64,000 nt of DNA from Diplonema papillatum (taxonomy: Eukaryota; Euglenozoa; Diplonemea; Diplonemida; Diplonemidae): contig JAPJBO010000365.1 in the NCBI GenBank assembly GCA_030068145.1, positions 147,443-211,442 of the forward strand, written 5' to 3'. The stretch's first letter is position 1. The number at the start of each line of letters is the position of its first letter. The notes under the pieces were generated by a model. The model was not told the origin of the DNA, made no database searches, and saw only the letters and a list, made by a program, of their open reading frames with translations. Both the position numbers and the translations under genes were made by a program. This document shows, in pieces, positions 3,001 through 36,090 of the stretch.

Positions 3001-4437
3001 GCCAAATGCCAGTCCTCCAACCGCCTACAGCCCACACTTCCGAAATTGCCCTTCGCGGCTTCTGAGCCGGGCCGCCCTCATTCCACGACAACGCGGACAA
3101 ACAGAACGTCGAATCCATTCATATACACGGTGGAGTCCAGCCTCAGAAGCTGGAGTTAAAAAGCTGGAGTTATAAAGGCTGGACCTCACCGTGTAAGACG
3201 CCAGTCTTAGAAGATTGGATATTCGACCACCCGACCAATATCATACATGCTGAAGTCCAGCCTCAGAAGCTGGAGTGAAAGCTGGAGTTAAAATGCGGGT
3301 GGCACCCGCTTTTCGGGTGGATTTACACGCGTTTCGTGGTCGATCCGACCAATATCATACTAGGGTACAGGACTTCTCTCTCCCTCACACAACCCCTCCC
3401 TCCCCCCCACCTTTGCTTTCCGTGTACTGAAGCGTCACGATGGAAATGTGGCAAACACACGAAGATCATTGACAGTCGGGCTCGCTTGTGATTATCCTTT
3501 TCCGCAGCGGGCACTGAGACCGGAGCCAATCGCAGCACAAAGCGCACGACGAGGAAGAGAATTGTTTGTTTTCTGCTTTGCCGTTTTGCCCACTTTCAGC
3601 AGCACGTCTGCGTTCAAGGTCGCTACGGTGGGTGGACAGGTCTCGCCAGCACCCAAGAGCTGGATGCAGAGAGAGAAAGAGACGAGCGAAGGTACAGGAC
3701 AACCATCTCTCCGGGGAGCTCCGGTGTAAACTGATGGCCAGTGATAGACCTGTTGACCATAGACCGCAGTAGATCTGAAAGCTCGAGATAGACTATGAAT
3801 CACAAAGGCGATTTGAAGCAGCTTCGGGGATAGGGGCATTGGACTGGCTCAGACGCCCCCCCAGGTGCACCAAAGGTGCATAACGTAGGTTACTGAGTTA
3901 AGAATTGCGAAGAAATAGGACGCTACTTCGGAAGCAGGCCGTTTGTTTGTGCGTGCCGGTTGATTGTTTTCCCACTTGTATTTACCCTGTGTCATTTTTC
4001 AGGTAAGGAATACTGATCGACCACCAAAACACGCTGCCTACGTCTTTTTAGCCTGCACAATACATTGATGGGCAACCCCGCAAGATTGCTAGGACTAAAA
4101 AAAGGGACGATGACAACAGCATCGTACTTTGCCAGAATCCTTCTGCCCGAAACTTTCCCCCTCGCCAATTTTGGCATCTCGGCGTGTATTGATAAAAAGA
4201 AGAAGTTCGCTCAGGGCAAGAGCGCCTTCGGCTCTGGCGCATGTTCAGCGCAAACGCCAAGCCCGAGAGGATGCCTTGGTACTTTGGTCTAGAAAACCGG
4301 TGGCCATTCGACCCGTAGACCCTTGGCACTGCAGTGCACTGCCGGACACGTGAAGCTTGGTCGCAGGCTTTCCCGTGCACTTTTCGTACTCGCAAAAAGA
4401 AAAACGGTCGCTGCTCACCGGCCTGATCCGTCCTAGA
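1..4437. other. Gene-free repeat-rich stretch
   Basis: I recognise no protein-coding gene here: the open frames are short, overlap on both strands and run through homopolymers. The stretch holds an introner-like motif near 700-760, a weaker one near 2100-2140, an inverted repeat (described separately), T-tracts near 2681-2709 and 2800-2815, and two copies of a short palindromic motif containing CCTCAGAAGCTGGAGT near 3137 and 3255. That motif recurs near 42230, 46108 and, inverted, 46190. A segment near 107-130 (ACATTTCCGGAACAACGG) recurs near 16048-16070. Confidence 0.6.
1184..2520. repeat. Imperfect inverted repeat, arms about 1184-1425 and 2283-2520
   Basis: The right arm read on the minus strand matches the left arm read on the plus strand. 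Shared blocks are GGGGCTGCCTTGTGC, GGGAGAAAC(A/G)ATACAAC, TTTTTTGTTGAACGCTTACG with CCCGCCA after it, and TTTCCTACAAAGCAGG. The arms enclose about 850 bases of unrelated sequence. Part of the same unit is found next to the metallophosphatase gene (35550-35610 and related copies at 33870, 34490 and 34940), so this is a dispersed repeat present here in both orientations, not a transposon with its own transposase. Confidence 0.6.
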
Positions 4438-4648
4438 CATAGTGGTCAAACGATTCGCATTATCGCATATTATCGCATTTGGGATTCTGGCGCCAATTAT
4501 CGCGTTTTCATTCGCATTATCGCCCGATTAAAACCTGGGCAAATACAGTATCAGGGACTTTCGCATATTATCGCATGCCGATGATATGCGATAATCTTGT
4601 GCGACAATGCGATAACTATTATCGCATGCGAATCGTTTGACCACTATG
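4438..4648. mobile_element. MITE with terminal inverted repeats and CCTAGA target duplication
   Basis: The ends are perfect 22-base inverted repeats beginning CATAGTGGTCAAACGATTCG, at 4438-4459 and inverted at 4627-4648. They are flanked by identical CCTAGA hexamers at 4432-4437 and 4649-4654, the expected target site duplication. The 211-base interior is AT-rich and packed with direct and inverted ATTATCGCAT-type submotifs, so most of the element could fold on itself. There is no coding capacity. A 6-base duplication with short inverted ends indicates a non-autonomous DNA transposon; the superfamily is not determined. Confidence 0.85.
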
Positions 4649-4654
4649 CCTAGA

Positions 4655-4689
<35 letters not shown>
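4655..4689. repeat. Poly-C tract
   Basis: A run of roughly 30 cytosines directly follows the right target duplication of the MITE and lies about 55 bases before the outer end of the YR retrotransposon. Runs like this are prone to length errors in sequencing. Confidence 0.8.
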
Positions 4690-4691
<2 letters not shown>

Positions 4692-4742
4692 CCGCATCCA
4701 GCTGCAACTGACGTGGAAAAAGATAAAAGAAACAATCCAAAA

Positions 4743-4881
4743 TAATAAAATCCTCACTCCTATGCTTGTGTCTGTCACTCTCGTCCTCCGCTCCTGCTCT
4801 GCTTGCCGCGCGCAGTATAGTTGGAGCAAAAGGTGAAGCCAGAAAGCTGTTAATCTTGCTGCTGACCACATGAAGTGGTGC
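4743..4881 (-). repeat. Split direct repeat Y2 (outer 3' copy)
   Basis: 139 bases, identical by eye to 5025-5163. It begins TAATAAAATCCTCACTCC on the plus strand and forms the 3' terminus of the retrotransposon on its coding strand. The outer flank is A-rich. Confidence 0.9.
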
Positions 4882-4907
4882 CACGGGAACTCCGAAGAAA
4901 AATGAAG

Positions 4908-5024
4908 CAAGTGGGAAGGGAGGGAGGGGAAGCAAGCTACTTTGTTCCTCTGGACGGATTGGGAGCGGCAAACCTGTCGTTCGGATTATTATTAGTCTTC
5001 AAAGAAACAAGTTTCTTTTCCTAC
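4908..5024 (-). repeat. Split direct repeat X2 (inner copy)
   Basis: 117 bases matching 8656-8772 with an offset of 3748 and no visible mismatch. Near its terminus it carries a perfect 8-base stem, AAAGAAAC-AA-GTTTCTTT (5001-5018), seen equally in the outer copy at 8749-8766. A hairpin next to the recombining end could be a recognition feature; that role is inferred. Confidence 0.9.
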
Positions 5025-5163
5025 TAATAAAATCCTCACTCCTATGCTTGTGTCTGTCACTCTCGTCCTCCGCTCCTGCTCTGCTTGCCGCGCGCAGTAT
5101 AGTTGGAGCAAAAGGTGAAGCCAGAAAGCTGTTAATCTTGCTGCTGACCACATGAAGTGGTGC
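5025..5163 (-). repeat. Split direct repeat Y1 (inner copy)
   Basis: 139 bases matching 4743-4881, directly abutting repeat X2 at 5024/5025. It lies 128 bases beyond the RT stop codon. The Y1-X2 junction is the expected copy of the circle junction in elements of this class. Confidence 0.9.
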
Positions 5164-5291
5164 ATCCCTGCGCGTAGTCGCTTGTGTGAAGTCACTACAA
5201 ACAGTTCCCGGGCGTGAATAAAAAAGAAATTATGACGTGAGAAAGAAATATGATGCGAATAACAGTCTCGAGGACGGATGAGAGGTCCTCA

Positions 5292-6926
5292 CTACTTCGG
5301 AACCTGACGAGACAGCGCGTCGGCCAGCTGTTCTTTGGTGCTAACCAACCTCAGCTCGATGCTCGAACCCTGGAGACGTGCTGCTCTCTTGACTCTCCGT
5401 AGGATCCGGGCTGTCAGCGGGTCCTTGCAACGTCCCCTCTTGAAAGCGTAAACACATATCGAGTTGTCTACGAAAGCCCGAATGCTCACGGGGGAGCGGA
5501 CCCGGCGCAGCAGCTTCTCCACCCCTGTCAGAAGGGCCAGCGCCTCCAGACGATGGATCGGGTGCTTTGCCTCCAACGGTGTCCAGGCACCCCACGAAGA
5601 GAACAACCCGCGCGACAGGGCTCCCCAGCCAGTTGTCGACGCGTCAGTCCAAAGCTCGCACAGCCTATGTTGTTCGGCCTGCGGTATCCGTTTCCACCCG
5701 GCTATGGCACGTCGCAGTCTCCGCAGAGTTGACACGAGCGACGGCCACGGAGTGTACGGGGAGTCCCACAGGGCTGGTCGCTCATGCAGTAGCCTGCCGA
5801 CCCTGGACTGAAACAGGCTCAAGACAGGGAAGTCCCATCCATCCATTCCTAGAAAATACAAATAAAAATTGCACACGCCCAGAACCCGGTAGATGTCTCT
5901 GAAGGACGAGCCTCCTGAAACCGCGTCTATGGCCGGGCCGAGAGCGGTGGTGACGCTGCGCGGCGCGCGGATCCTATTGGACGGGAGGTCGACATCCAAA
6001 CCGAGCCACTGGACGCGCTCGGCCGGACCCTGTTGGACTGGCTTGGTCTCGAGTCCCACGTATTCCGCCGTACGGGTCCAGGCGTCCCAGAGCTCTGCCA
6101 TGCCAGACTTGTCACGGGCCGAAAGAAAAAAGTTGTCCACCCAGGGCGTCACTCTGCCCGAGGCGCAATTTGTCGTGACATAGCTGCTGACCATGTCCGA
6201 GAACGATGTGGCAACCGCCATCGATACGTTCCAACCCATAGGCATCACCTCCATCTGGAACTTGCCATGAGGCAGGCGCATGCCGAAACAAGGACGTATC
6301 CGTGGGTCCAGCTCGAACGCGTGGAAGAAGCTCAGGGCGTCTACTTCTAGCCCCACGTTAGCTGACCTTACTGTGTCCCAGATCTCCTCTCTCGACGGGA
6401 GCGACGTGGCGGGGATTTGCTCTCTGGGCAGGTGGCCGTTCAACGTTTCCGGCCAGCAAATAAGCCTCCCCTCGTCAGTCCGACCCTTCTTCGCGATGGT
6501 GAAGACCTTCATCTCGACGATCGGACTGGCGTGCGCCACCTTACGTGTGACGCTGGACATGGCGACGTCACGGGCGTGCCCAGGATGCAAGTCCGGCTTC
6601 CTGGTCAGAACACTCCGCCCCTTGAACGGACCAAAGAAACGGTAGAAGAAATCGTGGTCGCGAACCCACCTGGAGTCGTCCATCCATCTTCTGTGGCCGA
6701 TAACTCCCGCGATTCGGTCGCAACGGTCGTATCGCAGCCTGGAGGGCGCCTTCTGCGCTATCCTCGCCGTCGGGGGCGCGGGGTCGCGCAATCGCTTGAC
6801 GGCCTGGAACGTCGTAGGGTCCCACGAGAGCACGGCGTCGCTTAGAGAAAAATTTGCCGCGGCAAGTACATCGCGGACGGCCGGGGCAGGGTCATCCCGG
6901 CGGGTGAGGGTTGACCGCTCGTTCAC
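5292..6926 (-). CDS. Reverse transcriptase-RNase H of YR retrotransposon
   Basis: Counted from an in-frame GTG at 6926 the product is 544 residues. RT palm motif A is LEVDALSFFHAFELD (Asp196), and MPMGWNVSM (227-235) is the usual substrate-binding block. The motif C box reads WVDN at 262-265 in place of YxDD, so the second catalytic aspartate is asparagine. The RNase H domain follows, with all four acidic residues: Asp428 in LWTDAS, Glu461 in HRLEAL, Asp487 in FVDNS and Asp536 in LADALSR, the last motif being typical of DIRS/Ngaro-type elements. The first in-frame ATG is at 6683, inside conserved sequence. The upstream YR stop overlaps the proposed start as GTGA, so translation probably needs reinitiation or frameshifting. 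It would copy element RNA into DNA in the particle or nucleus. Family assignment is secure; catalytic competence is not. Confidence 0.88.
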   Translation of the reverse strand: MNERSTLTRRDDPAPAVRDVLAAANFSLSDAVLSWDPTTFQAVKRLRDPAPPTARIAQKAPSRLRYDRCDRIAGVIGHRRWMDDSRWVRDHDFFYRFFGPFKGRSVLTRKPDLHPGHARDVAMSSVTRKVAHASPIVEMKVFTIAKKGRTDEGRLICWPETLNGHLPREQIPATSLPSREEIWDTVRSANVGLEVDALSFFHAFELDPRIRPCFGMRLPHGKFQMEVMPMGWNVSMAVATSFSDMVSSYVTTNCASGRVTPWVDNFFLSARDKSGMAELWDAWTRTAEYVGLETKPVQQGPAERVQWLGLDVDLPSNRIRAPRSVTTALGPAIDAVSGGSSFRDIYRVLGVCNFYLYFLGMDGWDFPVLSLFQSRVGRLLHERPALWDSPYTPWPSLVSTLRRLRRAIAGWKRIPQAEQHRLCELWTDASTTGWGALSRGLFSSWGAWTPLEAKHPIHRLEALALLTGVEKLLRRVRSPVSIRAFVDNSICVYAFKRGRCKDPLTARILRRVKRAARLQGSSIELRLVSTKEQLADALSRQVPK

Positions 6927-7966
6927 GGTTCCCTCTCTTCGTCGCCTGTCCCCGCGTCTGCGAGAGCGCGGCTGGCTCGGATCTGCTGACGTCGGTGAGC
7001 AAGCGGGGCGTACCGGATGAGCCCCGTCAGGGTGGCGTGCAACGTCAGCGTCCGCACTGACTCGGCTGACGCGTGTTTTAAAGCGAACTGAGCCGCGCCC
7101 CGGCGGATGCTGTGTCCGCTGTACGTCTTGGGGAGGAGGCTCGCGAATCTCGCTGTCGTCCAATCGCCCCCCAGCGTATCGGTCGGGGCCAGCAACCGCA
7201 GGTGCCGCTCCACGAACTCGCGCCACGGGCCCGTCCTCACCGTCGTCACAACGCCGATGTTGCGCCAGTCTTTGCGCTGCCTCCAGCTCAGCTCCATCAG
7301 CTCCCCTTTCAATGTCACGTCCGATGCAGGGGTCCGCCGCACGTCTCCGATCCGGCTGCAGGTCAGCCACGCTATGGCGAATACCGCTGCGGCCTTCGGA
7401 GGTGCTCGCTGAACGACGTCCCACATGAGCCTCTTCGAGATCGGGCGAGCCTGGTCCCTCGGCTGTTCCACCTTCATCTTCGCCAGCCCCTTGAGGACCA
7501 TCCGGAGACGAGGGTCCTCCAAAGTGACCCCCTGGAGCTTCAGAGCGGCGGTGACGTTGCCCATCTCTGTCAGGATGGAGGAAGCCTTCAGCCCGTCGGC
7601 CTGCATCCATCCGATCCAACTCAGGACCTGGTCCGCCACGGTTGCGCCCAGGAGGTCCACTTTCCGCACGTACCGCCTCCACTTCGCGTGGGTGTAGGCG
7701 ATGTTCTGCCACGTGCTGTCGGCGTACGCGGCGTCGATGATGTCGAGCAGGGCCCGCTGGACCTTCGCACCCGGGATGTGTGCGATTTCCTTCAGCGGGC
7801 GTCCCCTGCGCGTCCGGCGGTCGTCCCGCGGCCCGCTCGCTTGGCCGCCGGCCCTCCGGGGGGGTTCTTCGAATGGGCAGTCACCAAGAAGGACGGCTGC
7901 CCTTGCTGCCTTTTCCTCCTGTGCCCTTTCCGCCTTTGCCGCCTTTTCCGTATCCACGCCGTACAT
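6923..7966 (-). CDS. Tyrosine recombinase (integrase) of retrotransposon
   Basis: From the ATG at 7966 the protein has 347 residues; the frame is open further upstream to 8065. The N-terminal half resembles the SAM-like core-binding region, with WRRYVRKVDLLG near 96-107. The catalytic half shows Arg205 in CSRIGD, His285-x-x-Arg288 in HSIRRG, His310 in LTLH and the nucleophile Tyr319 in IRYAP, the full R-HxxR-H-Y set of tyrosine recombinases. It should integrate a circular DNA intermediate without target duplication. It overlaps the end of gag by 86 bases in another frame, and its TGA overlaps the RT start. Its position before the RT is the unusual point, since DIRS, PAT and Ngaro carry YR last. 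Confidence 0.9.
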   Translation of the reverse strand: MYGVDTEKAAKAERAQEEKAARAAVLLGDCPFEEPPRRAGGQASGPRDDRRTRRGRPLKEIAHIPGAKVQRALLDIIDAAYADSTWQNIAYTHAKWRRYVRKVDLLGATVADQVLSWIGWMQADGLKASSILTEMGNVTAALKLQGVTLEDPRLRMVLKGLAKMKVEQPRDQARPISKRLMWDVVQRAPPKAAAVFAIAWLTCSRIGDVRRTPASDVTLKGELMELSWRQRKDWRNIGVVTTVRTGPWREFVERHLRLLAPTDTLGGDWTTARFASLLPKTYSGHSIRRGAAQFALKHASAESVRTLTLHATLTGLIRYAPLAHRRQQIRASRALADAGTGDEEREP

Positions 7967-8636
7967 ACGGCGGGGCGCCCTTACCCGAGCCGCGACTGGC
8001 CTGGGTCTTCTTCGTCTCCTTCCTCTGCCGGTCGACCTCCTTGTCGACGTCCTCGACCAACTCACGAATGTCGGACGGGTAGTCCGCCCACCGCGCCTTC
8101 TTTTCGACGGCCTGCACGGCGCGCTGGTCGAGCTTCCGCTTGATCAGCGCGCGGATCTCGTCGTCGATGACTTCCTGCACGAGGGCGTCCTCGATCTTGG
8201 GAGTTAGCTTGCGGATGCGGGCGAACCGCTCCTCCGCCTCCCGCTTCGCGGCCCGGGCCCGGAACGTCTCCGGTCCCCACTCGCGATGGGCCGTGTCGTA
8301 GAACAGCCACGGGTCTCGCAGCCAGTTGAACGAGCTGGCGGCCTCGGATGCGGTCGGCGGCGGCGGGGTCCTCCACACCGGCTTCCTGTTTGCGGGCAGG
8401 GCTGCTCGTGCCGGTGCTTCACCCTCCGCCTCGTCGGAGTCATCTTCGTCCTCGTCGCTGTCGCCATCATCGGCGTCTTCCGCGCGCGCCTCCTCCCCGT
8501 CTTTCTCTGCCAGAATCCTGGCCTGCAGCTCCCGCTTTCGCTGGATCCCGGCGACTACCACACCGAGTTCCGCGGCCAGCGCTTTCAGCTCGACCACGGT
8601 CAGTCCGGCCAAGTAAGCCTCGGTGACTTTCGGCAT
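7881..8636 (-). CDS. Gag-like protein with SAP-type motif and basic Gly-rich tail
   Basis: 251 residues, starting 20 bases inside the left repeat. Residues about 4-45 (LAGLTVVELKALAAELGV ... KRELQARIL) fit the SAP helix-extension-helix pattern for nucleic acid binding. An acidic Asp/Glu/Ser stretch follows near 50-72, then a helical region rich in charged residues. The tail (about 218-251) is a Gly-Lys-rich run (YGKGGKGGKG...) that could bind RNA. No zinc knuckle was found. Gag function is inferred from position and composition. The 3' end overlaps the recombinase frame, so the downstream frame needs internal initiation or frameshifting. Confidence 0.75.
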   Translation of the reverse strand: MPKVTEAYLAGLTVVELKALAAELGVVVAGIQRKRELQARILAEKDGEEARAEDADDGDSDEDEDDSDEAEGEAPARAALPANRKPVWRTPPPPTASEAASSFNWLRDPWLFYDTAHREWGPETFRARAAKREAEERFARIRKLTPKIEDALVQEVIDDEIRALIKRKLDQRAVQAVEKKARWADYPSDIRELVEDVDKEVDRQRKETKKTQASRGSGKGAPPYVRRGYGKGGKGGKGTGGKGSKGSRPSW

Positions 8637-8655
8637 CGTCGATGGGAAGTGCGAA

Positions 8656-8772
8656 CAAGTGGGAAGGGAGGGAGGGGAAGCAAGCTACTTTGTTCCTCTG
8701 GACGGATTGGGAGCGGCAAACCTGTCGTTCGGATTATTATTAGTCTTCAAAGAAACAAGTTTCTTTTCCTAC
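8656..8772 (-). repeat. Split direct repeat X1 (outer 5' copy)
   Basis: 117 bases matching 4908-5024. It forms the 5' terminus of the element on its coding strand. The outer flank is a run of 21 adenines (8773-8793). Confidence 0.9.
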
Positions 8773-9100
8773 AAAAAAAAAAAAAAAAAAAAAGAGAAAA
8801 AGAAAAAGAAGAAGAAGAAGAAGAAAAAAGGTAGTTTGAGTCTCCGAGCTCTTGATAGTAGCCCTTTTCCTTTTTTTTTTTTTTTTGCTTTTTTTTGTTC
8901 CGACTCCTCGAGTGTACGAGGCCGAACTCGAGAGGCCGTGACGGCTATTCACTACAGGACGTTCATGAAATCAAAACAAAAGAGAAGAAAAAAAACCAGG
9001 CAGAAGCAAGCGGCTCAGGCAGCTGCGCTCACAGAAGTGAGTGACTGCTGGGGTGGGGATAGGTAGGGAGGGGGGGGTTGAGGATGGGATTGGGGGGGGT
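8773..9100. other. A-rich and GAA-rich low-complexity stretch
   Basis: Contains (A)n, a short AAG/GAA microsatellite (about 8800-8826), T-tracts near 8869-8895, then G-rich sequence. No gene is seen. Confidence 0.6.
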
Positions 9101-9109
9101 GGGGGGGGA

Positions 9110-9290
9110 ATGTGAGTCTGGTTTGCCAGGCGGTTGTTCGCAGCTCGCCGCAGCCAGGACCACCCATGCTACGAGAGCACAGGCGGACGCGTCTCGGAGA
9201 ACGCCCCTTGCAACCGTGTCTGAGCAATCAGTTAAAAAAAACTCAGGGCGCCCGCCCTACTTGTGGCTGCGACTCGCTAGAACGACGGTG
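9110..9290 (+). repeat. Dispersed repeat R, partial copy
   Basis: Shares long blocks with 28646-28800, such as CCGTGTCTGAGCAATCAGTT and ATGCTACGAGAGCACAGGC (GTGCTACGAG... in the other copy), and more weakly with 44730-44850 and 62630-62750. No coding frame is conserved among copies, so it is probably non-autonomous. Confidence 0.7.
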
Positions 9291-9368
9291 GGAGGGGGGA
9301 TGCTTTTGGAATGGTTTGCGCCCCCGTCTGCTGAGCCTTCCGACCCAAGCCTTCCGTTCAGCAGTGAA

Positions 9369-9454
9369 CGTACTGATTTCAGCACGTAAATCATTTTAGT
9401 TTCTTCTTGTACACATGCCGAATCAGTACGTGTACACGTGCTGAAATCAGTGCG
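9369..9454. repeat. Hairpin-forming inverted repeat
   Basis: GTACTGATTTCAGCACGT (about 9369-9386) is nearly repeated in inverse as ACGTGCTGAAATCAGTGCGT (about 9436-9455), separated by about 50 bases. It could be a small MITE; no target duplication was identified. Confidence 0.5.
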
Positions 9455-9832
9455 TTATCAACACGTACTATCTTTTCTGCAGATTCAACTGGGGAATCAA
9501 CCGCAGTACCGGGGATTCCGGTAGACAGACCCTGCTGTTGCTTACCACCGCGACACCGGAGGGTTGAGGCCGGCGAGGAGGGAGAGGCAAAGACATGCAA
9601 CACTGGCAGGTGATCCCCCTATGCTCTATTTCTTTTTTTGCCTGACCCTACGTACTGATTTTCAGTAGGTATTTAGCTCCAAGACAAAAGAGCTGCGTAA
9701 GCCCTGTTTGGATCTTCAATCCAGGTACGCGGACCTTCTTCATGGAGCCGGAGTACCTATAGCAGGAAAGCTATGTGAGACCAGTCTGTCAAAATATGGT
9801 GGCATCCTGTGTCCAGAGTGAGCTGGTGCCTC

Positions 9833-10020
9833 CCACTCACCTTTTAGTCGCCCACGCCCCTTGTCAGACGCTAGCGACCGACATGGTGCACGTGTGTCAC
9901 AGTCGTTGGGTGGTGTTGGCAAGGGTTTCATCGGCCACTCGGACGAGCTTCGTTCTCGCCTCGCCGGACCTGGCTGTGTCAAGTGGCTGCGCATGGCCCG
10001 CTGTTTGACTCGGATGAGCT
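9833..10020 (-). repeat. Diverged inverted copy of part of the 2.2-kb repeat
   Basis: Its reverse complement matches 44030-44205 and 61930-62105: shared blocks cover the tracts around GGGCCATGCGCAGCCACTTG, GCCAGGTCCGGCGA and CATGTCGGTCGCTAGCGTC. It is visibly more diverged than those two copies are from each other, which shows that the 2.2-kb unit belongs to an older dispersed family. Confidence 0.75.
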
Positions 10021-10289
10021 TACGAATGCCTGTCATGGGTGCGCCTCTTCAGAGCCGCAGGTGGCATCGGCAAGCGCGGGTAACTAACTCTCTTGAAGGG
10101 TGCCATTCGCCTCGTCTCCTAAATAAAGACGTGCACGGAAGGACCAACGCGAATTCTCATTCTCTTCCTGTCGGCAGGCAGAAACAGGCGAAAAGCAGTC
10201 ATAGGAACGGACTTGCAACTGTCATGGGGCGAGGGAGCCAAGACCCTCGAGCCACCCAGCTTCTGACCAGAGAGCTAGACAAGTACCTT

Positions 10290-11353
10290 TCTTGCGATGC
10301 CTCGTCCTTCTCGGCGGGTGTCGCTTGCCGCGGTAGCTGTTCAAATTGTGGAGGATGCTGTCAAGCACCTACGTATTGATCATCCCGTGCACGTGTTGAG
10401 GGTACCGCTACGGTACGGGCATCCTGGAAGGAACGTGGTGGTTGGCACCAGCCGGATACAGTATCGCCAGACCTGTTGCCTGATGTCTGTGTATAGCACA
10501 GCGAGGCTGACGTTGCCTGATGGCTGCGTGCGCCTTCTGAGAGCCCAAGGCGCAGGGTGCCTCAATCCTTCCCCAGCTCTGCACACATGGCGAGGATGTC
10601 GTCCAGCACCTGCGTGATGAACGACGGGCCGCCCTTCCAAGCATGCGTCATGAGAGCACCGCTGCGACAACGGAGCTCGAGAAGGGAACTGGTGGTTGTC
10701 TCCAGCTGGAAACCCGTCGACATCGCCGCTGATGCCTGCGTGCGCCTTCTGGGACCCGAAGCTCACGGTGTCTCGAGCCTTTCTGCAACTGCTCCAATTG
10801 TGAGGATGCCGTCAGGTATCTACATATTGAACGGTGCCTCCCATGCACCTGATGTATGTGCATGTCCAAAGAGACACGGGTGCAAACCCGTCGGCATCGC
10901 CAGGTACGTTGCCGGATGGCTGTGTGTCTCCATCCTTCTCCAGCACCGCTCACATGGCGAGGATATCGTCAAGCACCTGCGTGAGGAACGACGGGCCGCC
11001 CTCCCAAGCATCCGCGTCGTTCTGCGCGTCTTGAGAGCACCGCTGCGACAACGGAGCTCGCGACGGGAAGCGGTGGTTGTCTCCAGCTGGAAACCCGTCG
11101 GCATCGCCGCTGATGCCTGCTGCCTCAAACCCTTTTTGCTGGTATCTCTTGCTGCAGCAATTGCTCCAATTGTGAGGATGCCGTCAGGTACCTACATAAT
11201 ATTATCGAACGGCCGCCCTCCCATGCACCTACTGCATGTCTAAAAGAGACACGGGTGCAAACCCGTCGGCATTGCCAGAATACGTTACCTGATGGCTGCG
11301 TGCGCCTTCTGAGACCCGAGACGCAGGGTGCCTCAATCCTTTCCCAGCTCTGC
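10290..11353 (-). pseudogene. Tandem decayed copies of the 3' end of the polyQ-protein gene
   Basis: Segments equivalent to the gene's last 150 or so bases plus 3' flank recur directly downstream of its stop. A shared anchor, GATGGCTG(C/T)GTG, lies near 10518, 10915 and 11291, giving spacings close to 380-395 bases, and a weaker fourth copy is near 10330-10470. All are on the gene's own strand and carry indels that break the frame. They are untranslatable relics of repeated tandem duplication of the gene end. Confidence 0.75.
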
Positions 11354-32390: not shown

Positions 32391-33743
32391 CTACTTCGAA
32401 GGGTGCTTCGGCACACTTCGTCGGAACACCTCGACCGGCTTCCCTTCAGGATCGACGGTGAAGTACTTGACCAGCAGCTCGTTGACGGAAGCTTCCACGC
32501 AAGCGAAGCCGATGGCGCGCTGCATCCACACCAGCCGGTTCGCCTCGTCGATCCTGCCGTTGGCTGGCGCGCTCGCTTCGGCAGCTTTTCGTATCTTCCG
32601 CTTCACCGTCGCTTTGAGCGACCCTTCTCCGCCCGAGGAAGACGAGCTCCCGCCCCCTGCCTTCCGGCCTGCTTGCTCCTCGCAGTCGCTGCAGTCGGCC
32701 GCGCTCTCGATCTTGGCGCTGTTGCCGACGATGCAGTACTCGGTGTTCCGGTTCCGGAGGTGGGCCATCAGGTGCTGGTGCCCGGAGCAGTACAGGTCGG
32801 CCTTCGCGACGATGTGGTCCCGGAGAGACGTTCCCCGCAGGCGGCTCGCCGGGCCGCCCTTCATGAAAGTCGTCGAGAAGTACCGGATCCCCGGGATTTT
32901 GTGCTCGAGGATGCTGAACGGAATGTACTCGATAGGGTGGTGCCCGACGACCACCTTCCACCGCGCCGACGACCCCTCCAGCCGCCGGGTCACGTACTTC
33001 TTCTGCGCGCCCCACCAGCCCCCGCCTGGGCAGATGCCGCCAGCGCACGCGACCCTGTTGTACTTGTTCGTGTTGAGCACCACCAGCTCGACAGCCGCGT
33101 CGAACGAGTCGACTTCCGCTGGCGTGAACAGCTGCGGCGTCCTCGACTGGTGGAAGCGGAGGGTTTCATTCGCAGAGTACATTGGGCCGGGGAGCAGCCA
33201 GTGCCACGTCCGCGCGTCGGCGGTGGGCGGCGGCGCTGGCTCCGGCGACGACGCCCTCGGGACCCCTCCGGGGTCGTCAGGCTCGCCGGTGGACGAGGCT
33301 GAATCCGCGGTGTGCAGAGTGGGTAACGAAGTGTTGCTCAACGGGGCGAGATCGGGGCACGGGCCAGTTCTTGGAGAACCGTCCGCGTTGCCTTCCGAGT
33401 CGGGGGGCTGGATACTCGGCACGCTTAGCGCGGTGTGCAGCGTGCCGCGGGGGGACGGCGCCGGTGCGGCCTGGCGGTCCCGCAGGTGCCACGCGTAGGC
33501 GGCTTTCTTGACGTCGTGGTTGCCCAGCGTGACCAGCCAAGGGACCCGCACCTGCGCGAGCAAGTCGTCTTCGAGCTGCGCGAAGCATTCGTCGTTCGGC
33601 TCGCCGTACACGTTGTCGCCGGTGGTCAGCACGAAGAGCGGCGGCAGCTCGGCCGCCAGCAGCCGCATCGCCTTCCCGACCGAGCGGCGGCCCGCGCCGG
33701 CTTCGCCGATGTCACCGACGACAAAAAATCGCGACGGGCCCAT
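32391..33743 (-). CDS. Metallophosphatase, purple acid phosphatase-like
   Basis: 450 residues from the ATG at 33743; the frame is open to 33905, which would add 54 residues of low-complexity leader. Calcineurin-like phosphoesterase motifs occur in order: VVGDIG (Asp11), TTGDNVYG (Asp43, Asn44, Tyr46), TLGNHD (Asn75, His76), VVGHHP (His268, His269) and SGHQH (His322, His324). The conserved tyrosine of GDNxY and the motif spacing after removal of an insertion fit the small, animal-type purple acid phosphatases. The insertion (about 84-176) is Ser/Pro-rich with a repeated TLHTA motif and may be an unspliced or acquired segment. The substrate would be phosphate monoesters; no clear signal peptide follows the chosen start, so its location is uncertain. 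Partial copies of both gene ends flank it. Confidence 0.87.
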   Translation of the reverse strand: MGPSRFFVVGDIGEAGAGRRSVGKAMRLLAAELPPLFVLTTGDNVYGEPNDECFAQLEDDLLAQVRVPWLVTLGNHDVKKAAYAWHLRDRQAAPAPSPRGTLHTALSVPSIQPPDSEGNADGSPRTGPCPDLAPLSNTSLPTLHTADSASSTGEPDDPGGVPRASSPEPAPPPTADARTWHWLLPGPMYSANETLRFHQSRTPQLFTPAEVDSFDAAVELVVLNTNKYNRVACAGGICPGGGWWGAQKKYVTRRLEGSSARWKVVVGHHPIEYIPFSILEHKIPGIRYFSTTFMKGGPASRLRGTSLRDHIVAKADLYCSGHQHLMAHLRNRNTEYCIVGNSAKIESAADCSDCEEQAGRKAGGGSSSSSGGEGSLKATVKRKIRKAAEASAPANGRIDEANRLVWMQRAIGFACVEASVNELLVKYFTVDPEGKPVEVFRRSVPKHPSK

Positions 33744-33921
33744 CGGCTCGCGGCGACCGCTTTCGCCGCTTTTCTCTCTGTTGCCGCTCACCGGTTGTGC
33801 ATGGGGGGTGGGGTGGCCCCTTCGTTTGAAAGAGGCCTTGGTATGGTTTGGCGGGAACTTCGCTAAAACGAAAATGCTCGAGGAGCTGCTTACTTCGAAA
33901 AACAATACTACTACAAAGTGA

Positions 33922-36090
33922 TGGTGTGATCCACAGTAGAAAACTTAACTTTCCATGAACTTACTAAGAAATTTCCAAGTAGTTTCCCATGCACACCCCA
34001 AATAGGGTAAAACGGCGATTTCTGGCCATTTTCTGCACTTCTCGTGAACTTCCCAAGTACTTCCCGAGTACACCCCTTGTACACCCAAGTGAGGCCACCG
34101 GAGCACACCAAAGTAGGTCTTTTTGTTGAACGCGTACGCGTACACGAACGTAAGCCAAGGACCCGCACCTGTGCGAGCAACTCGTCTTCGAGCTGCGCGA
34201 AGCATTCGTCGTTCGGCTCGCCGTACACGTTGTCGCCGGTGGTCAGCACGAAGAGCGGCGGCAGCTCGGCCGCCAGCAGCCGCATCGCCTTCCCGACCGA
34301 GCGGCGGCCCGCGCCGGCTTCGCCGATGTCACCGACGACAAAAAATCGCGACGGGCCCATCGGCTCGCGGCGGCCGCTTTCGCCGCTTTTCTCTCTGTTG
34401 CCGCTCACCGGTTGTGCATGGGGGGTGGGGTGGCCCCTTCGTTTGAAAGAGGCCTTGGTATGGTTTGGCGGGAACTTCGCTAAAACGAAAATGCTCGAGG
34501 AGCTGCTTACTTCGAAAAACAATACTACTACAAAGTGATGGTGTGATCCACAGTAGAAAACTTAACTTTCCATGAACTTACTAAGAAATTTCCAAGTAGT
34601 TTCCCATGCACACCCCAAATAGGGTAAAACGGCGATTTCTGGCCATTTTCTGCACTTCTCGTGAACTTCCCAAGTACTTCCCGAGTACACCCCTTGTACA
34701 CCCAAGTGAGGGCTGCCGCCGCTCTTCGTGCTGACTACCGGGGACACGGCGAGCCGAACGACGAATGCTTCGCGCAGCTCGAAGACGAGTTGCTCGGACA
34801 GGTGCGGGTCCTCGGCTTTCGTTCGTGTACGCGTACGCGTTCAATCAACAAAAAAGACCCACTTTGGTGTGGGGTGGCCCCTTCGTTTGAAAGAGGCCTT
34901 GGTATGGTTTGGCGGGAACTTCGCTAAAACGAAAATGCTCGAGAAGCTGCTTACTTCGAAAAACAATACTACTACAAAGTGATGGTGTGATCCACAGTAG
35001 AAAACTTAACTTTCCATGAACTTACTAAGAAATTTCCAAGTAGTTTCCCATGCACACCCCAAATAGGGTAAAACGGCGATTTCTGGCAATTTTCTGCACT
35101 TCTCGTGAACTTCCCAAGTACTTCCCGAGTACACCCCTTGTACACCCAAGTGAGGCCACCGGAGCACACCAAAGTGGGTCTTTTTTGTTGATTGAACGCG
35201 TACGCGTACACGAACGTAAGCCGAGGACCCGCACCTGTGCGAGCAACTCGTCTTCGAGCTGCGCGAAGCATTCGTCGTTCGGCTCGCCGTGTCCCCGGTA
35301 GTCAGCACGAAGAGCGGCGGCAGCTCGGCCGCCAGCAGCCGCATCGCCTTCCCGACCGAGCGGCGGCCCGCGCCGGCTTCGCCGATGTCGCCGACGACAA
35401 AAAATCGCGGCGGGCCCATCGGCTCGCGGCGACCGCTTTCGCCGCTTTTCTCTCTGTTGCCGCTCACCGGTTGTGCATGGGGGGGTGGTCCCGGGTGGCC
35501 CCTTCGGTGACAGAGGCCTTGGTATGGTTTGGCGGTGGGAACTTCGCAACGAAAATCGAGGGGCTGCCTTGTGGTTACTTCGAAGGAGGAGAAACAATAC
35601 AACTACAAAGTGGTGGTGTGATCTTAACTTCCCATGAACGTACTAAGAACTTCTTCCCGCGTACACCCCAAATAGGGTAAAATGGCGATTTCTGGCGATT
35701 TTCTGCATTTAGTACTTCCCGTGAACTTCCCAAGGGACCCGCACTTCCCGTGAACTTCCCAAGGGACCCGCACCTGCGCCAGCAGCTCGTCTTCGAGCTG
35801 CGCGAAGCATTCGTCTTCGGCTTGGTGGTCAGCACGAAGGACGGCGGCAGCTCGGCCGCCAGCAGCCGCATCGCCTTCCCGACCGAGCGGCGGCCCGCGC
35901 CGGCTTCGCCGATGTCGCCGACGGCAAAAAAATCGCGACGGCTCGCGGCGGCCGCTTTCGCCGCTGTTCTCTCTGTTGCCGCTCACCGGTGTGCATGGGG
36001 GGGTCGGATCGCCCCTTCGTTCGAAAGAGGCCTCGGTATGGTCCGGTGGCGCGGGAATTCGCGACGAAAAAAGTGTTTTCCGGGGCTGAT
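33922..36090 (-). pseudogene. Array of decayed 5'-end copies of the metallophosphatase gene
   Basis: Three upstream copies of the first 65 or so codons plus leader lie at about 34152-34538, 35215-35605 and 35765-36090, all on the gene's strand. The first two break homology at the same point, just after the codons for LLAQVRV, and then share a foreign segment (CGTACGCGTACACGAACG), so they amplified after one chimaeric event. Spacers of about 170-230 bases (33922, 34539, 34979, 35606) are also copies of one another. Confidence 0.85.
34713..35323. repeat. Inverted repeat inside the copy array (arms 159 bp)
   Basis: 34713-34871 is the reverse complement of 35165-35323 with only a few mismatches. 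The arms include the exon copy, so one copy was inverted in place. The two arms are about 290 bases apart and could form a large hairpin. Confidence 0.85.

Follow-up and report, generated by a model that had tools for sequence, protein, structure and literature searches.

The closest described systems to the element reported here are the VIPER and TATE retrotransposons, whose structures have been described from kinetoplastids (Muszewska 2013; Ribeiro 2019, PMC6681497). Split direct repeats, arranged A1...B1 A2 B2, are reported for the VIPER elements of two species, T. cruzi and C. fasciculata, and for a single TATE copy of L. braziliensis (Ribeiro et al. 2019, PMC6681497); a survey of trypanosomatids from 2025 restates this arrangement for VIPER/TATE (PMC12278014). 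In these accounts the elements carry a Gag-like frame, a tyrosine recombinase (YR), and a reverse transcriptase–RNase H (RT/RH) in that order, they insert with no target duplication, and SIRE corresponds to A2-B2 (PMC6681497, PMC12278014). Several published VIPERs have no CH-box in Gag (PMC6681497). For D. papillatum, the genome paper reports more than 60 ORFs resembling TATE, MULE, and Helitron proteins, taken together, and its authors defer rigorous element identification (PMC10161547). These TATE-like ORFs very likely belong to the genome studied here; the passages of that paper dealing with them describe neither their structure and repeats nor their families and insertion sites.

We analyzed a stretch of 64,000 nucleotides, hereafter the window, from contig JAPJBO010000365.1. 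The host is a euglenozoan, very likely the diplonemid Diplonema papillatum, a free-living relative of trypanosomes. The window contains an element with the following features:

4743 to 8772, minus strand: whole element, X1-ORF1-YR-RT/RH-Y1X2-c-Y2, 4030 bp; both ends recur in sister copies
8656 to 8772, minus strand: X1, left split direct repeat, 117 bp, identical to 4908–5024
8722 to 8723, minus strand: AG, trans-splice acceptor for the RNA behind copy L033, element positions 50–51, in X1
7881 to 8636, minus strand: ORF1, Gag by position, with homologues in other families
6923 to 8143, minus strand: tyrosine recombinase frame, with a Cre-like profile match and invariant R, K, HxxR, H, and Y
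5292 to 7880, minus strand: RT-RNase H frame, 862 codons, with a PF00078 match and RNase H residues
5025 to 5163, minus strand: Y1, internal repeat, 139 bp, identical to 4743–4881
4908 to 5024, minus strand: X2, internal repeat, 117 bp, abutting Y1 at 5025/5024
4743 to 4881, minus strand: Y2, right terminal repeat, 139 bp, identical to Y1
8773 to 8793, strand not assigned: target T-tract on the 5' side of the element, 21 A on the plus strand
4739 to 4742, strand not assigned: remainder of the target T-tract on the 3' side, TTTT in the element sense

The first-pass annotation had placed the element and its X1...Y1X2-Y2 repeats at these positions, with Y1 and X2 abutting to the base, and this placement proved exact, with everything read on the minus strand. 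X1 and X2 match over all 117 bp and Y1 and Y2 over all 139 bp with no mismatch, and a spacer of 26 bp separates X2 from Y2. Within positions 3500–10500 of the window there are four inverted pairs of at least 25 nt, none of which joins the element ends; the terminal repeats are direct. An Rfam search of the window gave no match. The first-pass description of the locus, as an intact YR retrotransposon that combines split direct repeats with the gene order of VIPER, is borne out. The gene order, the A1...B1A2-B2 repeats, the overlap of the YR and RT frames, the absence of target duplication, and the occurrence of A2-B2 as a separate short repeat are all common to this element and VIPER/TATE (PMC6681497, PMC12278014). 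The claim that the locus newly joins split repeats to the VIPER order does not hold, since both were described in VIPER/TATE in 2019 (PMC6681497); nor does the element newly show how VIPER-type elements end, as the split repeats were already published (PMC6681497, PMC12278014). The Diplonema element differs from VIPER/TATE in its T-tract target and in an ORF1 that has no CH-box. Its RT motif C reads WVDN, a further possible difference from VIPER. VIPER and TATE live in kinetoplastids, whereas this host is not one. The novelty lies mainly in the host group, with the use of T-tracts as targets, the WVDN of RT motif C, and a spliced-leader fossil as new details.

Other YR retrotransposons share fewer of these features. 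DIRS-like elements have inverted terminal repeats with an internal complementary region, in contrast to the direct terminal repeats found here. PAT-like elements place YR after RT and usually carry a methyltransferase domain. They resemble the Diplonema element in their split direct repeats, whereas here YR lies upstream of RT and a Pfam scan found no methyltransferase match. Ngaro-like elements, for example those of Cafeteria burkhardae, have B1 abutting A2 and solo AB repeats, as does the Diplonema element (PMC8547959). Their order is ORF1, RT-RH, YR (PMC8547959), whereas RT follows YR both in the window and at all seven loci read from other families.

The labels Gag, YR, and RT-RNase H given at first pass stood for the second, by profile and residues, and for the third, by PF00078 and residues; Gag is assigned by position only. 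A Pfam scan found no Gag family match in ORF1, and its weak SAP-like N-terminus scored below the Pfam cut-off in all four sequences scanned. The C-terminus is rich in Gly, Lys, and Arg. Homologues in other families are 40–51 % identical. The CH-box zinc knuckle is absent, and the window translation contains no cysteine at all. Because several published VIPERs lack the CH-box, we do not regard it as defining for VIPER-like elements.

The YR frame has a GTG at 8065 and its next in-frame ATG at 7966. A profile built from four YR sequences matches Cre recombinase with an E value of 7e-4, the match being confined to the N-terminal portion plus the first half of the core. Three of the four single YR proteins matched phage-integrase families; the exception is the window's own YR, in which the Pfam scan found no recombinase. 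The residues R, K, HxxR, H, and Y are invariant in the alignment. An AlphaFold2 model of YR as a single sequence had a mean pLDDT of 39 and was set aside. The RT-RNase H frame continues the ORF1 frame directly beyond its stop and stays open across the whole YR gene. PF00078 matches at an E value of 1e-5, which is under Pfam's own cut-off. The RNase H residues D, E, D, and D are invariant across five aligned sequences, and motif C is WVDN in the window and in 7/7 loci of other families. In two pairs, dN/dS for YR and RT is 0.08–0.15, with dS near saturation in one; these codon comparisons indicate purifying selection on RT and RNase H.

We also considered a coding role for the amino acids of the RT frame where it crosses YR. 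Alternate-frame identity of the window with L042, L043, and L065 gave no signal above codon-shuffled sequences (z 0.4 to 0.6), and this role was rejected. Among L042, L043, and L065 themselves, pairwise identity did rise above that of shuffled codons (z 2.1 to 6.4). The non-coding frame of the same pairs does so as well (z 2.0 to 5.6), and we therefore read the excess as residual common descent. L044, which belongs to the same family as L043 and has a broken YR frame, was omitted from the YR alignment and codon tests; L041, interrupted by a 2.36-kb insert, was replaced by L065 in the comparisons.

Copies with the same X/Y ends, looked for on the suggestion of the first-pass annotation, do occur. 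Both ends were found in 15 of the 20 sister copies examined, at 99.6–100 % identity; one of the 15 begins at base 2. Stop-free, full-length RT of 100 % (rounded) identity occurs at 21 places in the genome. The seven loci of five other families (RT 31–53 % identical) all show the order ORF1-YR-RT, and none has YR downstream of RT, the arrangement that the annotation had named as contradicting its reading. Five of them (L041, L042, L043, L044, and L065) represent three families with 40–58 % amino-acid identity, depending on the piece; L043 and L044 are one family, with RT 97 % identical. L072 and L073 are more distant (YR 27 %, RT 31 %). Split repeats with the same ATTA|GT junction are present in L042, L043, L044, and L065; L041 is interrupted, and the 4-kb stretches of L072 and L073 do not reach the ends. 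Pattern-based scans of viral contig and prokaryote genome collections found no relative.

Insertions lie in T-tracts, in a single orientation. Clean empty sites, also proposed at first pass, were found, and comparison of occupied and empty sites of one host repeat showed no target-site duplication. In the T-tract tally the 5' entry of L033, a false match on X2, was excluded; the entries left unparsed (L064, L066 3' end; L067 both ends; L068 5' end) are all readable by direct reading. Solo X2-Y2 forms (4743–5024 in the window) were read at 23 loci, about as many as full copies, most with exact ends in the T-tract position. Three X1...Y1 copies were read. Of 739 candidates, 40 were scored; the 52 matches scored, 28 being 5' ends, included no rotated copy. 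A double-stranded circular intermediate in which the Y1X2 and Y2X1 junctions are used alike is disfavored, because rotated copies would then be expected to be common; this result constrains circle-based integration models.

One copy, L033, carries nucleotides 6–39 (34 nt) of a spliced leader joined to element position 52 onward, directly behind the AG at element positions 50–51. Since the leader is joined at the splice acceptor, processed RNA must have been reverse transcribed, showing that this copy moved by retrotransposition through a trans-spliced mRNA. The leader matches the published 'Euglenozoa 14' leader, and a brown alga, considered earlier as the host, was dropped in its light. Its core occurs 571 times in the genome and 0 times in reversed controls; GTA directly follows it in 220 of the 571, and some occurrences lie in tandem arrays.

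We conclude, with a probability of roughly 0.8, that this is a complete, apparently recently active YR retrotransposon of a euglenozoan, VIPER-type by architecture, with the following likely cycle. The host would transcribe through the element and use the AG in X1 as acceptor for trans-splicing, which would replace the first 51 nt of X1 in the mRNA by the spliced leader, as seen in L033. This mRNA would encode the ORF1, YR, and RT-RNase H proteins. The RT frame is probably entered from ORF1, in this lineage by stop read-through, and would cross the YR gene in another frame, which is stop-free but whose amino acids show no conservation between the window and other families. RT would then copy the RNA, and the shortened X1 and any 3' loss could be rebuilt from the internal Y1X2, which holds both ends joined. 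The ...ATTA end and GT... start are found joined to T-tracts in one orientation and with no duplication, presumably by YR. Recombination between X1 and X2 or between Y1 and Y2 may give the observed solo X2-Y2 and X1...Y1 forms. More tentatively, and with greater doubt than belief, we propose that trimming of the element RNA by the host accounts for the split direct repeats: trans-splicing would remove 51 nt from the 5' end of X1, Y2 would presumably be shortened by polyadenylation, and the internal Y1X2 would rebuild both ends before YR inserts into T-tracts, with an RT that uses Asn at the position of the second catalytic Asp in motif C.

The assignment to the VIPER type competes with a separate YR-retroelement lineage that resembles VIPER only in order and repeats, YR having come before RT twice or the order being ancestral to several lineages. 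WVDN in the window and 7/7 other loci, the missing zinc knuckle of ORF1, and the weak or absent matches to general RT and YR models fit such a lineage. Set against it are the order, A1...B1A2-B2 repeats, overlapping YR/RT frames, lack of target duplication, and A2-B2 short forms shared with VIPER/TATE (PMC6681497, PMC12278014), and a host in the same phylum as kinetoplastids, and we consider it improbable. PAT and Ngaro also have split direct repeats, which would fit a local rearrangement of such an element (YR after RT) or the nesting of two unrelated ones. This reading is refuted for practical purposes by the same structure in 15 full-length sister copies and 7 loci of five further families, where YR and RT diverge in step (YR 46–48 % and RT 51–53 % over their main parts in one set, YR 27 % and RT 31 % in the second). 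The YR-style insertion with no duplication would suit a Crypton-like DNA transposon, cut and pasted by YR, that had acquired an RT gene and had no RNA stage. DNA-only transposition is strongly disfavored by L033, whose leader at the splice acceptor requires reverse transcription, and by the purifying selection on RT and RNase H; we hold it to be very unlikely.

For the solo X2-Y2 forms, recombination in place is preferred. That they are an independent short element, non-autonomous and spread by YR, is less likely, though to be taken seriously: the 23 loci, most with exact ends in T-tracts, are about as numerous as full copies, and SIRE of T. cruzi is the same segment of VIPER (PMC6681497, PMC12278014). 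However, in-place X1-X2 recombination yields the identical product, Hackl et al. put forward such recombination as the origin of the solo AB repeats of Ngaro (PMC8547959), and solo X2-Y2 has no internal Y1X2 junction, thought necessary for end repair.

Near-identical, apparently recently mobile diplonemid families would date the VIPER-type group to before kinetoplastids arose, and such copies give element ends at single-base resolution. The spliced-leader fossil ties the split repeats to a transcript end cut off by trans-splicing; therefore, the long-inferred end-repair step becomes testable. If the RNA-trimming proposal is true, VIPER-type elements would be older than the kinetoplastid–diplonemid split, and their end structure would be explained by trans-splicing.

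The element reads on the minus strand, and the coordinates 4743..8772 given by the first-pass annotation are exact. The split repeats it described, X1...Y1X2-Y2 with Y1 and X2 abutting, are borne out as identical pairs in the window. The features are listed here, with YR for tyrosine recombinase, RT-RH for reverse transcriptase-RNase H, and ORF1 for the frame in the Gag position.

Window 8772-4743, minus strand: whole element, 4030 bp, in the order X1, ORF1, YR, RT-RH, Y1, X2, 26-bp spacer, Y2
X1 (117 bp) and X2 (117 bp): identical along their entire length
Y1 (139 bp) and Y2 (139 bp): identical along their entire length, Y1 directly abutting X2
ORF1, 251 aa: "Gag" from position alone
Spacer, 26 bp: between X2 and Y2
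L072, G000:C38:226000-230000, and L073, C27:409200-413200, same genome assembly: second, distant YR group

The window YR is too divergent for a recombinase match in Pfam and matches no integrase family in PHROGs. A profile of four YR sequences matches Cre recombinase (E 7e-4) over about 180 residues, mostly in the N-terminal region and the core's first half, and each of three YR relatives matches phage-integrase families in PHROGs. The residues R, K, HxxR, H, and Y, which we take to be the catalytic set, are invariant across the four aligned YRs. The window RT matches PF00078 at E 1e-5, below the curated cut-off, and aligns weakly with a viral enzymatic polyprotein in the PDB (E 0.17). The residues D, E, D, and D, presumably the RNase H set, are invariant in five aligned sequences. 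The N-terminus of ORF1 is weakly SAP-like, below the cut-off in all four sequences scanned. RTs usually carry (Y/F)xDD at motif C; here the motif is WVDN, in the window and in seven of seven loci of other families. That the element copies are identical suggests that the WVDN enzyme works, if it is the RT used.

The genome searched comprises 271 Mb in 2910 contigs. It holds at least 21 full-length, stop-free RT matches at 100% (rounded) identity, the window's included; RT-match counts are lower bounds because 80 of 2468 candidates were scored. Of the 20 sister copies, 15 have the same first and last base as the window element at 99.6-100% identity, one of them (L035) starting at base 2. The 5' ends are altered in L033 and in L034; in the latter the T-tract and X1 up to its 24th base are intact and element positions 25-99 are missing. 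The remaining three (L022, L039, and L040) end exactly at the end of Y1, and represent two independent cases because L039 and L040 have common flanks.

Three further families (L041/L065, L042, and L043/L044), whose amino-acid identity is roughly 40-53%, also have ORF1, YR, and RT in that order and, where their ends are intact, the repeats. The ATTA|GT junction of the window element also occurs in their repeats. The RTs of L043 and L044 are 97% identical, and the YR frame of L044 is broken. L041 carries a 2.36-kb insert (5631-7993) just after the RT gene that is absent from L065. A PF00589 search showed another YR group in many copies; most of the 150 rows scored, of 1099 candidates, are YR matches of two frame lengths, 521 and 554 aa. 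This group was read from one 4-kb stretch per length class (L072 and L073), with the element ends outside what was read. The two are 72-80% identical to each other, have the order ORF1-YR-RT/RH, and are about 27% (YR) and 31% (RT) identical to the window's proteins. The Gag-YR-RT order proposed at first pass thus holds in the window and in related loci, and YR lies downstream of RT in none of the seven fetched loci, from five other families of this genome. The arrangement of the window element is no local accident.

The same order, Gag-like, YR, RT/RH, is that of VIPER and TATE (Ribeiro et al. 2019, PMC6681497, available text). That text also describes split direct repeats, A1...B1A2-B2, in T. 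cruzi, C. fasciculata, and one L. braziliensis TATE copy, and the available text of a 2025 survey adds that target duplication is absent (PMC12278014). All three traits are as in this element family, whereas the hosts are kinetoplastids there and a diplonemid here. The central novelty claimed at first pass, VIPER order together with split direct repeats, is therefore already in print. Outside kinetoplastids, the same portion of PMC6681497 reports few matches to VIPER/TATE, with two bacterial records matching RT/RH and YR that its authors put down to contamination, and for YR also a bacterial integrase. The Diplonema genome paper, in its available part, mentions ORFs resembling TATE and describes no elements (PMC10161547). 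The Ectocarpus and Cafeteria papers, in the portions available, present Ngaro or PAT-like elements and not the ORF1-YR-RT order (PMC12477816, PMC8547959).

Insertion sites were compared at 44 loci: the window, the 20 copies, and 23 solo X2-Y2 loci. The 5' end could be parsed in 42, and at least eight T's stand right before the first G in 37 of these, with five T's in one more. Of the other four, three (L030, L031, and L061) show 7-8 T's in a row with one additional base, and the last is the spliced-leader copy, L033. At the 3' end, T continues in 39 of 41 parsed loci (exceptions L037 and L046). Parsed copies carry the T's on one and the same strand with respect to the element. As background, 96 of the window's 64000 positions follow T8 and 46 follow A8. 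When the flanks of the solo L064 are joined, they match a dispersed host repeat in 40 of 40 copies scored (481 candidates), at 95-98% identity over the whole or nearly the whole length; the solo L067 lies at the same site of this repeat. Empty sites, which the first-pass annotation had proposed to look for, were thus found: the three repeat copies read have an unbroken run of nine T's at the insertion point, and the occupied sites read ten T's, 282 bp, one T (L064) and nine T's, 282 bp, one T (L067). From this comparison, insertion is clean and duplicates no target sequence, apart from one or two T's in the length of the tract.

Other repeats lie near these insertions. A dispersed sequence, GTATAAGCACCTGCTTTGTAGGAAAT, the same or very similar, adjoins four insertions of two families (L042 after 6138; the 3' flanks of L022, L062, and L063), and may be a common target repeat or another element. 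Beside the window's target site, TCGCATATTATCGCA-like repeats are enclosed by a 28-bp inverted repeat (window 4433-4653; 96% complementary, 165 nt apart), with a 32-nt run of C following closely at 4658-4689; this structure is possibly a small mobile element. Elsewhere (window 32394-35642, minus strand), a metallophosphatase-like gene seems to have its 5' part in repeated form: of the long frames on that strand, those from 33944 and 34561 have the same first residues, and that from 35642 similar ones. Repeat-bounded genes like these have been published for D. papillatum (PMC10161547, available part).

The 282-bp X2-Y2 query gave at least 40 full or nearly full matches (best 40 of 800 candidates). 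Twenty-three matches away from RT loci, each taken with 200 bases per side, have X2-Y2 only within the fetched stretch; one is without the first 6 nt, and one pair has common flanks. According to the available texts, solo AB repeats are likewise known for Ngaro in Cafeteria (PMC8547959), and SIRE of T. cruzi corresponds to the same segment of VIPER (PMC6681497, PMC12278014).

If circles with two equal junctions integrated, rotated copies, X2-Y2|X1...Y1, should be common. We searched with a query of Y-end, X1, and interior, which such a copy would match end to end and with the highest score. There was no end-to-end match among the best 40 of 739 candidates scored, from which some known 5' ends are absent; the query gave 28 matches to X1 plus interior, 12 to Y1X2, and 12 short ones to Y2. 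This absence counts against the simplest form of the proposed integration model. It may be that one junction is protected; otherwise the integrating form is unlike a simple two-junction circle.

The copy L033 bears on the RNA route. In it, X1 has lost its initial 51 nt: at the 5' end a T-tract leads into 34 nt that end in ACTTTATTG, and the element sequence picks up again past the AG at element positions 50-51, with the joining G assignable to either side. We take the leader exon "Euglenozoa 14" to be that of Diplonema. The 34 nt are nucleotides 6-39 of this exon (PMC3795323, available part). A 39-bp leader, with leader genes in repeat units, is described for D. papillatum in the available part of PMC10161547. 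We assign the host to Euglenozoa with high confidence and to D. papillatum with good confidence. The spliced-leader core occurs 571 times in the genome (reversed control, 0) and is followed by GTA in 220, with an array on contig C1335 at about 1.24-kb spacing. The other 351 exact copies are without an exact GTA, and many may be spliced-leader-bearing retrocopies. The junction of leader and element occurs once in the genome, with one mismatch allowed. With its leader exactly at a splice acceptor, L033 offers direct evidence that one RNA from this family passed through trans-splicing, reverse transcription, and integration. A trans-spliced mRNA would lose the 5' part of X1, which X2 alone would still hold; this one copy suggests that such loss may be a reason for the split repeats. 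Our literature search by title found no link of split direct repeats or DIRS with the spliced leader or trans-splicing.

In the window, L042, L043, and L065, the RT frame continues that of ORF1, beginning immediately past its stop, and no stop codon interrupts it anywhere in the YR region. Under codon shuffling within YR, a stop-free RT frame has P 0.003 (window) and 0.018, 0.004, and 0.0195 (the other three), values that are not independent because the families are related; for L072 and L073 it arose in 0 of 2000 shuffles each. The amino acids of this frame, window against the others, show no conservation beyond what YR imposes, and dN/dS in two pairs is 2.2 and 6.4, versus 0.15 and 0.09 for the YR frame. 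Our reading is that ribosomes have to traverse this frame but that its product is a free linker; RT is therefore probably entered from ORF1. For the window's lineage this would mean reading through the ORF1 TGA; for L072 and L073, whose ORF1 and RT occupy different frames, it would mean a frameshift. The families compared differ in the bases that follow the TGA and so conserve no known read-through signal. That YR and RT overlap extensively has been published as a trait of YR elements (PMC6681497, available text).

By its architecture, the window element is a VIPER-type element in a diplonemid. The architecture is known and the host group is new, and the evidence on ends, targets, and the RNA intermediate is unusually clean.
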